Positions 5,502-14,640 of a DNA stretch of 20,653 nucleotides are shown here, one piece after another; the stretch's first letter is position 1, and each line of letters starts with the position of its first letter. A model generated the notes under the pieces. The model saw nothing but the letters and a program-made list of their open reading frames with translations, was not told where the DNA came from and did no database searches. Source of the DNA: a virus. Both the position numbers and the translations under genes were made by a program. The stretch covers positions 1 to 20,653 of the IMG/VR virus record IMGVR_UViG_3300027969_000485, one strand, 5' to 3'.

Positions 5502-5927
5502 ATGAGTAATTTAGAAAAACCAATCAAGTTAGAAGCAGAAGTTCAGTGGGCTTTCTTCAACAAGAAATCAGAGATGTCCGGTAAGTTTCAAGTAGACCTC
5601 TGTAACCTCAGCAAAGAAGCAGTTAGTGCTTTAGAGCAAGCAGGGTTGAACCCACGTCAGCGTCCTGATAAACCAGAAAAAGGTTGGTTCTTGACAGCTA
5701 AGAGTAACTATGAAATTAAACCTTTCGACAAGTCAGGTAAAGAAATTACCGAAGCTGTTGGTAATGGTTCTAAAGCTGTAGCCATGATTAAGCCTTATGA
5801 GTGGAAATGGCAAGCTAAGAAAGGTGTATCACCATCTCTCGTCAAAATCACTATCACTGACCTCGTTGTTTACAACGCAGACTCAGCAGTAGCTGATGAG
5901 CAACTCGATGACGAGATAGCACTGTAA
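5502..5927 (+). CDS. gp2.5-like single-stranded DNA-binding protein
   Basis: 141-residue protein expected to coat single-stranded DNA at the fork and contact helicase and polymerase. Features: EVQWAFFNKKSEMSGKFQVD (13-32), KPEKGWFLTAKSN (57-69), VGNGSKAVA (86-94), PYEWKWQAKKGVSPSL (98-113) and ITDLVVYN (118-125). The chain ends in an acidic tail, DEQLDDEIAL (132-141). The GNGSK block, basic/aromatic OB-fold-like core and acidic tail are what is seen in gp2.5-type proteins of T7-like podophages. It is shorter than T7 gp2.5 (232 residues), and the tail is brief and ends in leucine rather than phenylalanine. Strong RBS and position next to polymerase and exonuclease support the role. Fairly confident. 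Confidence 0.8.
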   Translation: MSNLEKPIKLEAEVQWAFFNKKSEMSGKFQVDLCNLSKEAVSALEQAGLNPRQRPDKPEKGWFLTAKSNYEIKPFDKSGKEITEAVGNGSKAVAMIKPYEWKWQAKKGVSPSLVKITITDLVVYNADSAVADEQLDDEIAL

Positions 5928-6601
5928 TGAAGGCTCTCGTCGATGCGGATATTTTAGTTTACAGATTCGGATTTGCGTCCGAAGGAGACCCTGCAGAATT
6001 TGCGTTAGCTCGTCTATCTGAATTCTTGGACAATCTCTATGTAAACCTTCCTGTCGACGAGGTCGAAGGCTATCTGACTGGTAGAGGTAATTTCAGACAC
6101 GAGATTGCCGTGACTGCTCCGTACAAAGGAAATCGTAAAGCTGATAAGCCATACCACTTTGGATTACTTCGTGAATATATGCAAAAGTCATGGGGTTTTA
6201 CTGAAGTAGATGGCATGGAAGCTGATGACAAACTTGGTATTGAAGCCTACAAACACGATGAAGAAGAGACAATCATTGTTACCCTAGACAAAGACCTCGA
6301 CATGATTCGTGGTAATCATTACAACTTCGTTAAAGAAGAGCAGTACTTCATTACTGAAGAGCAAGGTATTCGTAACTTCTATCTGCAAATGTTAACAGGC
6401 GATAAAGTTGACAACATCATTGGACTGACTGGTATCGGTCCTGTTAAATCAAAGAAGATGCTTGCGGATTGCAATACAGAAAAAGAGATGTACGATGTTG
6501 TTTTAGCAGCATACGATAACAATTTAGACCGTGTCATTGAGAATGGTCGTCTACTATGGATTCTAAGAGAAGAAGGGCAAGTATGGCAGCCACCGAAATA
6601 A
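5927..6601 (+). CDS. T7 gp6-like 5'-3' exonuclease (flap/PIN family)
   Basis: 224 residues, FEN/PIN-like nuclease that would remove RNA primers and may degrade host DNA. Metal-binding acidic residues are in order: VDAD at 5-8, MEADD at 97-101, TLDKDLD at 119-125 and GDKVDN at 158-163. A helix-three-turn-helix, LTGIGPVKSKKML (167-179), follows. YKGNRK at 66-71 is the basic block typical of the family. The start overlaps the SSB stop as TAATG. Length is somewhat below T7 gp6 (300), mostly at the C-terminus. Placement SSB-exonuclease fits a replication cassette. Confidence 0.9.
   Translation: MKALVDADILVYRFGFASEGDPAEFALARLSEFLDNLYVNLPVDEVEGYLTGRGNFRHEIAVTAPYKGNRKADKPYHFGLLREYMQKSWGFTEVDGMEADDKLGIEAYKHDEEETIIVTLDKDLDMIRGNHYNFVKEEQYFITEEQGIRNFYLQMLTGDKVDNIIGLTGIGPVKSKKMLADCNTEKEMYDVVLAAYDNNLDRVIENGRLLWILREEGQVWQPPK
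6571..6576 (+). promoter_or_regulatory. Shine-Dalgarno AGAAGG selecting the 6583 start
   Basis: Six bases upstream of the ATG at 6583. The earlier in-frame ATG at 6556 lacks such a site and would add nine residues deep inside the exonuclease gene. Confidence 0.6.
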
Positions 6602-6993
6602 AATTGAAGAATTTAACAGAAGCACCGATAGTTCGATTGACATGGATTGACGCTCAAGCCGATGCTGGCTGGGAAGAACCTAAAGTTGATTTAGCTGTTT
6701 GTATTACTGTAGGATTTCTTGTAGCAGAAACTGATGACGGGATTTGTGTCGCTGGTACTGTGTCAGACCATTTATGTAACAACGTAATCAGTATTCCTAA
6801 ATCATGGGTTATTGACCAACAACTTGAGGTTAAAGAAGATGAAGCCCCAATCAGCGAAAGCAAAGGGAAGAAACCTGCAAAAGTGGGTAGTAAGCGAGTT
6901 GCAAAAAAGGTTTCCCCAACTAAGGCAGGGCGACTTAGTCTCAACGTCGATGGGAGCTGGAGGAGAGGACGTAAAACTCAGTCCCCATGCTAG
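6583..6993 (+). CDS. Small phage protein with basic, overprinted tail
   Basis: 136 residues. The N-terminal ~82 residues form a plausible beta-rich domain: APIVRLTWIDAQADAGWEEP, then VCITVGFLVAETDDGICVAGTV and VISIPKSWVI. A T-W-x-D-A/S start, a V-x-x-VG(W/F)L strand and an IP-x-x-x-I end are seen in small phage proteins of unknown function. After that comes a low-complexity basic tail (SKGKKPAKVGSKRVAKKVSPTKAG...) that lies entirely within the next gene's coding region in another frame. The last ~50 residues may therefore be overprinted, or may arise from a mutation that removed the normal stop near 6840. The start at 6583 is based on AGAAGG upstream. It overlaps the exonuclease by 19 bases. 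Confidence 0.68.
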   Translation: MAATEIKLKNLTEAPIVRLTWIDAQADAGWEEPKVDLAVCITVGFLVAETDDGICVAGTVSDHLCNNVISIPKSWVIDQQLEVKEDEAPISESKGKKPAKVGSKRVAKKVSPTKAGRLSLNVDGSWRRGRKTQSPC

Positions 6994-7180
6994 AGATTTA
7001 ATCCCATTTCAGATTGAATGTAAGAATTTAGCAAAGATAGCAGTGTATAATTATTACGACCAAGCCTGTACTCATGGTTCAGTTGAGCCACTATTAGTAA
7101 TGAAACAAAACAAGCGGAAGCCTTTAGTTGTATTAGATGCTGAAGCGTTCTTTGACATTATATCAAAACAGAAAGAATAG
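6839..7180 (+). CDS. PD-(D/E)XK nuclease, Holliday-junction-resolvase-like
   Basis: 113 residues. The pattern is AKAKGRNLQKWVVSELQKRF (6-25), GDLVSTSMGAGGEDVKLSP (31-49) and PFQIECKN (56-63). D44 and E60-x-K62 form a PD-(D/E)XK site, with E20 and Q75 in the expected helices. This arrangement is like small phage resolvase/endonuclease proteins and could fill the role that gp3 (endonuclease I) has in T7. The start at 6839 has GAGG 9 bases upstream; the frame is open back to a TTG at 6812. Its first 155 bases overlap the previous gene in another frame, but the conserved KGR..Q and GxDVxLSPxAR blocks show that this frame is the selected one. No partner protein is evident. Confidence 0.78.
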   Translation: MKPQSAKAKGRNLQKWVVSELQKRFPQLRQGDLVSTSMGAGGEDVKLSPHARDLIPFQIECKNLAKIAVYNYYDQACTHGSVEPLLVMKQNKRKPLVVLDAEAFFDIISKQKE

Positions 7181-13074: not shown

Positions 13075-14640
13075 TTATCGTGGTGCAAACAAACGCTGAG
13101 CTTCTTCGTCACTAATTCCTTGAACTGAGACACTGCCTTGTGGTGGGTTTAACGCACCTGTCAGTAATCCTCTATAAGCAAGGTTAGGTGCTCGTGGTGT
13201 TGCGCCAGCAGCAATCTCTTGAACACCTCTAGTAGCTGCTTGTTTTCTAAGGAAACCTTGTAATAAATCCGCAGTAAGACCACTACCTGCTAATCCAAGA
13301 GCAAGAGTTTGTGTTGGAGCTTGAGTCGCTAGTCCTACCTGACCTGCAGCCATAAGCTGAGACCGTAGTGGACTAAACTTTGCTATCATACTTAACACAG
13401 TATCAAAAGGACCACCTTTGGCAACACCTTTAATAATGTTTTGCTCCGATGTACTGAATAACTTCATCTTGTCTTTGTTTGCAGCGAGGTTAATGAAACC
13501 ACGACGGATAAGTTCACTTTCTGATGCTTTAGGGTCAATAGCTCTCACTTCAGCTACATCCAAAGCATCTTCTAACGTCTGAGCACGACTAGCATTTCTC
13601 CAGTCTTTCCTAGCAGACATGATATCTTTAACTGCTTTATCGATACCACCCTTACCAGCCACAACATCATTACCATTGATATTGCTGATGTAATCATCTA
13701 CTTTAGCAACAGCTACCGAGCCTAAACGCTTAATATCAGCATCTTTACTGCCTTTTAAATCGTTTAGCATAGCTCTCATTTTATCAACAGAGCTAAATGG
13801 GATTGAAGTATTATTCCCTAGAACTCTTGACATTTCAGTTAATCGAGCTGTGACTTCTCTAGCTTGGTCAGTACCGGGAACCATACGAGCATCATCTAAA
13901 GCAGTACTAATGTCTTTAAACATATTTTGTATACTAGATGCTTTAACAGTGATACCTGCATCATCTACAGCTTGATATGCCTGAGTTGCTCTATCTTTTA
14001 CTTGAGCAATGGTTTCTCTTGGACGATATTTGTAATCAATACCTTTTCCTACAGATGCTGCAGCTACAGTACCTGTTAAGATACCAGCAATAGTTGCTGC
14101 TGTGTCACTACCAGTAATTTCTTTAACAATCTCAGCAGTAGGTTGTGATACCGCACCTGCAGCAGCAGAAGCAGGGATTTGACGAATTAAGTCTGAAGCC
14201 AGCGCAGGTACATTAGGAGCAACCTTAGCCATTCCTGCAGTACTTGTCATTGCCTGAGTTCCAGCTTGGACAGCTCTTTCAGTAGCATTTTCAGGAGTTG
14301 GTAATACAGTACTCAACATCTTCTCTTGTTCGCCATAGAACGATGGCATACGGCTTTCAGAGCCAAGTGCTTTAGCACCTAGATTGTATACACCTCTACC
14401 AGCTTCTAAGACTGCCGTAGCAGGAGAAGTAAATGCTTCATAACCAGCACGAGCAGTTAGACCAATCTGTCTACCAAGCTCATCTACCATTGAACGACCT
14501 TTAGGAGCTTGTACAGGAGCTAGTGTAGCTTGAGTAGGTTGTTGTGATAACTGATATCTTTCTAAAATATCTTCCTGCGTTGTTCCATCAGGGACATTAC
14601 GAATAAGTGTGCCATCAGGCATTTTGACATCAAAAGGCAT
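13075..14640 (-). CDS. Large internal/ejection-type virion protein
   Basis: 521 residues. It opens PFDVKMPDGTLIRNVPDGTTQEDILERY (2-29), an N-terminal module of the type DG-T-x-I-x-x-VP-x-GTT, seen at the start of many phage virion proteins. Residues about 140-200 are Ala/Gly-rich and hydrophobic (IPASAAAGAVSQPTAEIVKE, then AATIAGILTGTVAAASVG), and the remainder is helical. A further apolar stretch lies around 430-460. These traits, the length and the position after two similar proteins match DNA-ejection/internal core proteins of podophages that form a trans-envelope channel. No transglycosylase motif is visible. AAGGAAA precedes the ATG; two bases separate it from the upstream gene. Confidence 0.68.
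   Translation of the reverse strand: MPFDVKMPDGTLIRNVPDGTTQEDILERYQLSQQPTQATLAPVQAPKGRSMVDELGRQIGLTARAGYEAFTSPATAVLEAGRGVYNLGAKALGSESRMPSFYGEQEKMLSTVLPTPENATERAVQAGTQAMTSTAGMAKVAPNVPALASDLIRQIPASAAAGAVSQPTAEIVKEITGSDTAATIAGILTGTVAAASVGKGIDYKYRPRETIAQVKDRATQAYQAVDDAGITVKASSIQNMFKDISTALDDARMVPGTDQAREVTARLTEMSRVLGNNTSIPFSSVDKMRAMLNDLKGSKDADIKRLGSVAVAKVDDYISNINGNDVVAGKGGIDKAVKDIMSARKDWRNASRAQTLEDALDVAEVRAIDPKASESELIRRGFINLAANKDKMKLFSTSEQNIIKGVAKGGPFDTVLSMIAKFSPLRSQLMAAGQVGLATQAPTQTLALGLAGSGLTADLLQGFLRKQAATRGVQEIAAGATPRAPNLAYRGLLTGALNPPQGSVSVQGISDEEAQRLFAPR

Follow-up and report, generated by a model that had tools for sequence, protein, structure and literature searches.

Does a stretch of phage DNA that is open in two frames of one strand encode both the start of a nuclease and a selected tail on the protein encoded upstream, or is the second frame an accident of sequence or assembly? 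The question arises in the 20.7-kb viral record analyzed here (20,653 nt; the window), which carries a replication block on the plus strand in the order primase/helicase, DNA polymerase A, gp2.5-like protein, 5'-3' exonuclease, an upstream gene (U), nuclease, and PAPS-reductase-like gene, followed by a long gene that we take to be ribonucleotide reductase-like. The polymerase is nearest to that of Pelagibacter phage HTVC103P (51%), and the exonuclease is nearest to those of assorted podovirus-like phages (at most 48%). On the minus strand, positions 13075 to 14640 encode a 521-aa protein without a PHROG match at an E value of 0.1.

All features at the junction lie on the plus strand. The last 19 nt of the exonuclease gene (5927 to 6601; PHROG 107) are shared with U. 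U itself spans positions 6583 to 6993 (136 aa; ATG at 6583 and stop codon at 6991 to 6993), and the sequence suggests a Shine-Dalgarno-like AAGG for it at 6573 to 6576, within the 3' end of the exonuclease gene. The nuclease gene (6839 to 7180; 113 aa; ATG at 6839 and stop codon at 7178 to 7180) is in the +1 frame relative to U, and its Shine-Dalgarno-like GAGG (6826 to 6829) lies inside U codons; GAGG or AAAGG precedes the nuclease start at the same place in nearly all relatives listed. The resulting out-of-frame overlap covers positions 6839 to 6993 (155 nt), exactly as an earlier reading of the sequence alone had placed it. That sequence-only reading gave 1 to 19 nt for all other overlaps, which is close to what we found for same-strand overlaps in the early gene block (0 to 23 nt with the chosen starts); the 155-nt overlap is therefore exceptional. 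The basic U tail that it described contains 14 K/R and 3 D/E among 50 residues.

By profile and catalytic motif, the downstream gene is a predicted PD-(D/E)XK phage nuclease. It matches PHROG 244 ("RusA-like Holliday junction resolvase"; E = 5e-14) and, weakly, Pfam PDDEXK_15 (PF24608; 18.6 bits versus a cutoff of 27); alignments beginning at its first residue were obtained with 74 phage records. The motifs KGR, GGEDV, and ECK, named earlier, are all there, and the nuclease alignment shows conserved E-D and E-C-K motif residues. A sequence search of the PDB for relatives of the nuclease returned none. An antisense open frame of 96 codons also crosses the overlap (6654 to 6944; minus strand); it is probably due to chance, as most relatives have interrupted antisense frames. 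More generally, we rejected an antisense or third-frame gene because the other frames examined were mostly interrupted, with stop codons in 22 to 34 of 35 representatives.

Conservation of the overlap among uncultured phages

Close relatives of U were found in IMG/VR only, and removal of duplicates left 202 loci. The overlap is real and conserved: in 194 of these 202 nonredundant loci, U runs on into a PD-(D/E)XK nuclease gene in the same single phase, with the two frames overlapping by 50 to 179 nt, and the arrangement is found in a widespread group of uncultured phages. The other eight loci comprise three contigs that end inside U (L210, L282, and L429), one contig with a cut 5' end and a normal overlap (L041), one with a 1-nt deletion fusing U and the nuclease in frame (L200), and three with HNH endonuclease insertions (L293, L370, and L380). 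Locus L365 has a U frame with a normal overlap. The lowest U identity to the window within the IMG/VR set was 37%, and an overlap shared by proteins this divergent must be old. The possibility that the tail is a recent accident was thereby refuted, as U proteins down to this identity have the same phase and tail core.

Outside IMG/VR, relatives were reached only by fold search. We found no clear relative when the sequences of U and of its consensus and variant bodies were compared by tblastn with 50,697 phage records, no match when genome contigs were searched with a U profile, and no Pfam match for U. Within the group, the two halves of the locus recombine, as seen in L003 (positions 1886 to 2480), where a window-like U (85%) is joined in or near the overlap to a nuclease of the L043/L046 clade. 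In L109 and L110 (around position 1501), which have the nuclease without U, a frame from the exonuclease side enters the nuclease by 80 to 86 nt in the same phase and ends in a basic-looking tail.

As an estimate of chance, the window nuclease was synonymously recoded; 1.5% of trials kept the full 155 nt of the U frame free of stop codons. Across representatives, the U frame was open for at least 19 codons in 36 out of 36, versus 3 to 20% expected for each, although these probabilities are not to be multiplied because the relatives are correlated.

Selection on the shared codons

In the phase seen here, each U codon begins with the third base of a nuclease codon, and changes synonymous for the nuclease therefore provide a test of U. 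The third base of each U codon is in turn the second base of a nuclease codon, which leaves U without free synonymous sites in the overlap. We compared 36 U-bearing representatives with 38 in which the same nuclease occurs without U (L057, described below, belongs to this control set, as L174). With U, same-residue codon differences at nuclease codons 5 to 15 were 0.30, compared to 0.47 to 0.58 downstream; without U, the value was 0.63, and there was no dip. A tree-based synonymous count agreed (P = 0.0012 with U and 0.80 without U), but the sequences are related and all constraint P values given here are consequently optimistic; the without-U control is the main argument. The synonymous-site test proposed by the sequence-only reading came out in favor of constraint in the first part of the overlap. 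An initiation-related codon bias was ruled out, as nucleases without U show no dip.

Individual codons tell the same story. Ala8 was encoded by GCA in 33 out of 35 sequences with U and in 10 out of 32 without it (P = 7e-8), and Gly10 was encoded by GGA in 34 out of 36 and 6 out of 38, respectively (P = 1e-12). A third-base T that would create a stop codon in the U frame was never seen with U (0 out of 256 sites), whereas it occurred at 53 out of 170 sites without U and at 262 out of 536 corresponding sites further down the U-bearing nucleases. The constrained codons (5 to 15; positions 6851 to 6883, plus strand) encode in the U frame a basic core around SESKGKKPAKV. Its net charge was +4.6, compared to +2.6 expected from stop-free synonymous recoding; about half of the core basicity is therefore a by-product of the KAKGR region of the nuclease, and the remainder is kept. 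These comparisons give good support to selected overprinting of the tail core and show that selection holds the U frame open and basic atop the nuclease code over the first 11 to 15 shared codons.

The distal overlap (6884 to 6993, plus strand) behaves differently. Tail length and stop position vary by clade, and beyond about codon 20 the tail seems mostly free to vary in length, with one clade possibly excepted. In the clade with a 179-nt overlap, codons 44 to 59 were also slow (0.07 versus 0.23; P = 0.001). Stop positions differ in its sister clade (89 to 179 nt), and we therefore claim only a weak, clade-specific distal constraint.

The same frozen sites could instead mark an element in the DNA or RNA where the nuclease begins (a binding site, a promoter, or a ribosome-loading site), with the U tail merely tolerated as read-through. 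Nucleotide identity is very high near codons 5 to 12, and HNH genes have inserted at exactly this spot, which makes the DNA a recognizable target. An element of this kind nevertheless seems improbable to us, although the lack of free synonymous sites in U leaves it a small probability. Third bases are frozen at nuclease codons 8, 10, 12, and 15 and variable at codons 2 to 4, 9, 13, and 17, and this alternation is better explained by constraint acting on U residue by residue than by a single unbroken nucleotide element. Neither the alternation nor the missing stop-making T is expected of such an element, and the pattern is absent from nucleases without U. In addition, a search for conserved RNA structure around the nuclease start found none, and there was no excess of sigma-70 promoters.

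Somewhat less probable still is that the whole tail is a neutral by-product, in which the U stop codon was lost once, the nuclease codons happened to stay open, and the tail is unselected. The drift of tail length (50 to 179 nt) and of distal sequence agrees with this account, as does the general tendency of +2 de novo frames to be basic (PMC8227390) and the charge of +2.6 that stop-free recoding yields by itself. The account may hold for the tail beyond about codon 20. For the core, it is contradicted by three results: synonymous change is constrained, no stop-making T occurs, and the charge exceeds expectation.

A single fused product made by +1 frameshifting within the overlap is very unlikely. 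The in-frame fusion in L200 (positions 2000 to 2580; a single contig, in which a 1-nt deletion places U and the nuclease in one predicted frame) implies that fusion might be tolerated, but an A-AAA-AAG run near position 6904 (U frame) would give a -1 rather than the required +1 shift and lies outside the conserved core, and the nuclease has its own Shine-Dalgarno-like site and start in relatives. We rejected frameshift fusion, as no suitable site was present in the overlap. Finally, a false extension in the window caused by an indel or a read error, the second option of the sequence-only reading, has a negligible chance of being correct, for although the deletion in L200 does alter the frame relation, the arrangement of the window recurs in about 200 contigs assembled separately, down to the most divergent U, and U length changes directly upstream of the overlap are whole codons.

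The U protein and the origin of its tail

The AlphaFold2 model of U has a confident five-stranded barrel (blocks of up to 95 pLDDT) and a disordered tail. From this model, we predict an Sm/LSm-like small beta-barrel at residues 11 to 82 and a disordered basic tail at residues 86 to 136 (both boundaries approximate). When the body alone was used in a structure search, the best 50 entries were all of the Sm/LSm type (Z scores of 8.0 to 8.7), mostly superimposing at 2 to 3 Å over 53 to 68 residues; the best Foldseek E value was 0.02. The U body thus likely adopts an Sm/LSm-like fold. Uncharacterized phage proteins of about 82 to 133 aa with the U fold were also present in BFVD. The pelagiphage proteins HTVC025P gp20 (82 aa) and HTVC031P gp16 (93 aa) match the U-body profile with modest scores. 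Both are standalone, lie elsewhere in the replication block, end at the barrel, and overlap the next gene by 4 nt. Homologues ending near residue 85 had been named as a sign that the tail is an artifact or a recent accident; only these remote standalone relatives do so, and they date the tail instead. Because they stop at the barrel end, the U tail is derived, having been gained. In many phages without U (e.g., Lentibacter phage ICBM2), the exonuclease gene directly precedes the nuclease gene with a 4-nt overlap.

The conserved arrangement and the tail-less remote relatives support the first option of the sequence-only reading, an extra basic tail of U overprinted on the nuclease gene. Its broader interpretation held in this part and failed for the indel, while the suggested nucleic acid binding is a role that the tail may have. 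We consider it very likely that the U tail is an old, single-phase, selected extension overprinted on the nuclease gene and that it is derived; its core may serve as a binding arm. In the simplest account of its origin, a gene for an Sm/LSm-like barrel would have entered this phage group between the genes for the exonuclease and the nuclease and read on into the latter, and the tail would have been retained as a derived extension above an older gene. With no stop codon at the barrel end, ribosomes would read on across the nuclease start, out of the nuclease frame, and the readthrough portion would form a disordered lysine/arginine-rich tail; nuclease translation would start separately from the Shine-Dalgarno-like site within U. 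The basic core could then be a flexible arm binding nucleic acid (or a partner), attached to a barrel that would itself bind RNA or DNA; U would work within the replication and recombination module of the phage. An Sm-like barrel with a lysine-rich arm, encoded in a replication block, suggests a nucleic acid-binding accessory protein.

Four loci have exchanged or interrupted the junction, each a single case in which assembly errors are possible. In L057, whose exonuclease is close to that of the window, an HslV-family peptidase gene (L057:5535-6092; PHROG 1040, E = 3e-26) occupies the place of U and enters the nuclease out of frame by 92 nt. In L380, an endonuclease VII-like HNH gene (L380:1718-2287) lies between U and the nuclease, and its frame overruns the nuclease. 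The cores read in these frames are SESKGTQT (charge 0) under the peptidase and SEEQGEAT (charge -3) under the HNH gene, so that the conserved basic core accompanies U as the gene overrunning the nuclease. In L370, another endonuclease VII-like HNH gene (L370:1709-2203) separates U from the nuclease, and its frame stops immediately. In L293, a different HNH gene (L293:2763-3416) replaces the nuclease, and U enters it by 98 nt and gains a new tail.

In both L370 and L380, the first 13 or so nuclease codons differ synonymously from those of close relatives while the rest is nearly identical, as if a recoded or co-converted nuclease copy had been brought by the insertion. The L380 nuclease equals that of L163 from codon 13 on (in the portion compared) and differs at six of codons 4 to 12. 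The HNH gene probably brought these changes along, either by co-conversion or in a recoded copy, and they are therefore not independent drift. We tentatively raise the idea, which we think is more apt to be wrong than right, that the nuclease 5' end is a portable tail cassette. Unrelated upstream genes (the Sm-like U, the HslV-like peptidase of L057, and the HNH gene of L380) would have been joined at the nuclease start, each drawing its tail from the same out-of-frame stretch, and free-standing HNH endonucleases would use the doubly constrained DNA as an insertion site, bringing a differently coded copy with them.

Comparison with known overlaps and folds

In tailed phages and bacteria, long overlaps are often put down to annotation errors or omitted above about 59 bp, and the U/nuclease pair is a clean counterexample. 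The case is strengthened by many natural variants, by a matched control set of the same nuclease lacking the overlap, and by loci in which the upstream gene has been naturally exchanged. It also offers a tractable example for studying the gain of a disordered charged tail by overprinting and selection on two codes at once. Gene callers that trim overlaps may remove real tails of phage proteins.

The predicted U body resembles Sm, LSm, and Hfq barrels in its short helix and five strands. It differs from them in having 6 to 17% identity in the alignments listed and no established Sm motif. Some Sm proteins carry basic tails.

Among viral overlaps, 84% are shorter than 50 nt (PMC7017920). Long prokaryotic overlaps are usually in phase 1 and originate by 3' extension of the upstream gene, and those above 59 bp were omitted as possible misannotations (PMC3887535). 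The U/nuclease overlap shares the phase class and upstream 3' extension of these unidirectional overlaps and, unlike the omitted ones, is backed by selection tests. In the PvuII C/R pair, a small gene likewise overlaps a downstream endonuclease gene that has an independent translation start, but the overlap is about 20 nt, the proteins are different, and a functional tail was not shown (PMC2997769). The HNH genes in L293, L370, and L380 recall the phage T4 homing endonuclease genes segC, segF, mobA, and mobC, which overlap upstream genes by 11 to 24 bp (PMC2988022); in the present loci, the HNH genes have invaded what was already an older and longer overlap. The closest parallel in kind is offered by genes A and C of phiX174, each a case of same-strand overlap through de novo out-of-frame extension over another gene (PMC8227390). 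As in phiX174, an existing phage gene was extended out of frame over its neighbor. In contrast to phiX174, the genes are unrelated to A and C, the host genomes are those of tailed dsDNA phages, about 200 natural variants are at hand, and both exchanged upstream partners and a control set without U exist. Terminal same-strand overlap with de novo C-terminal extension is thus a known kind of event, of which the U/nuclease overlap is a new and unusually well supported case.
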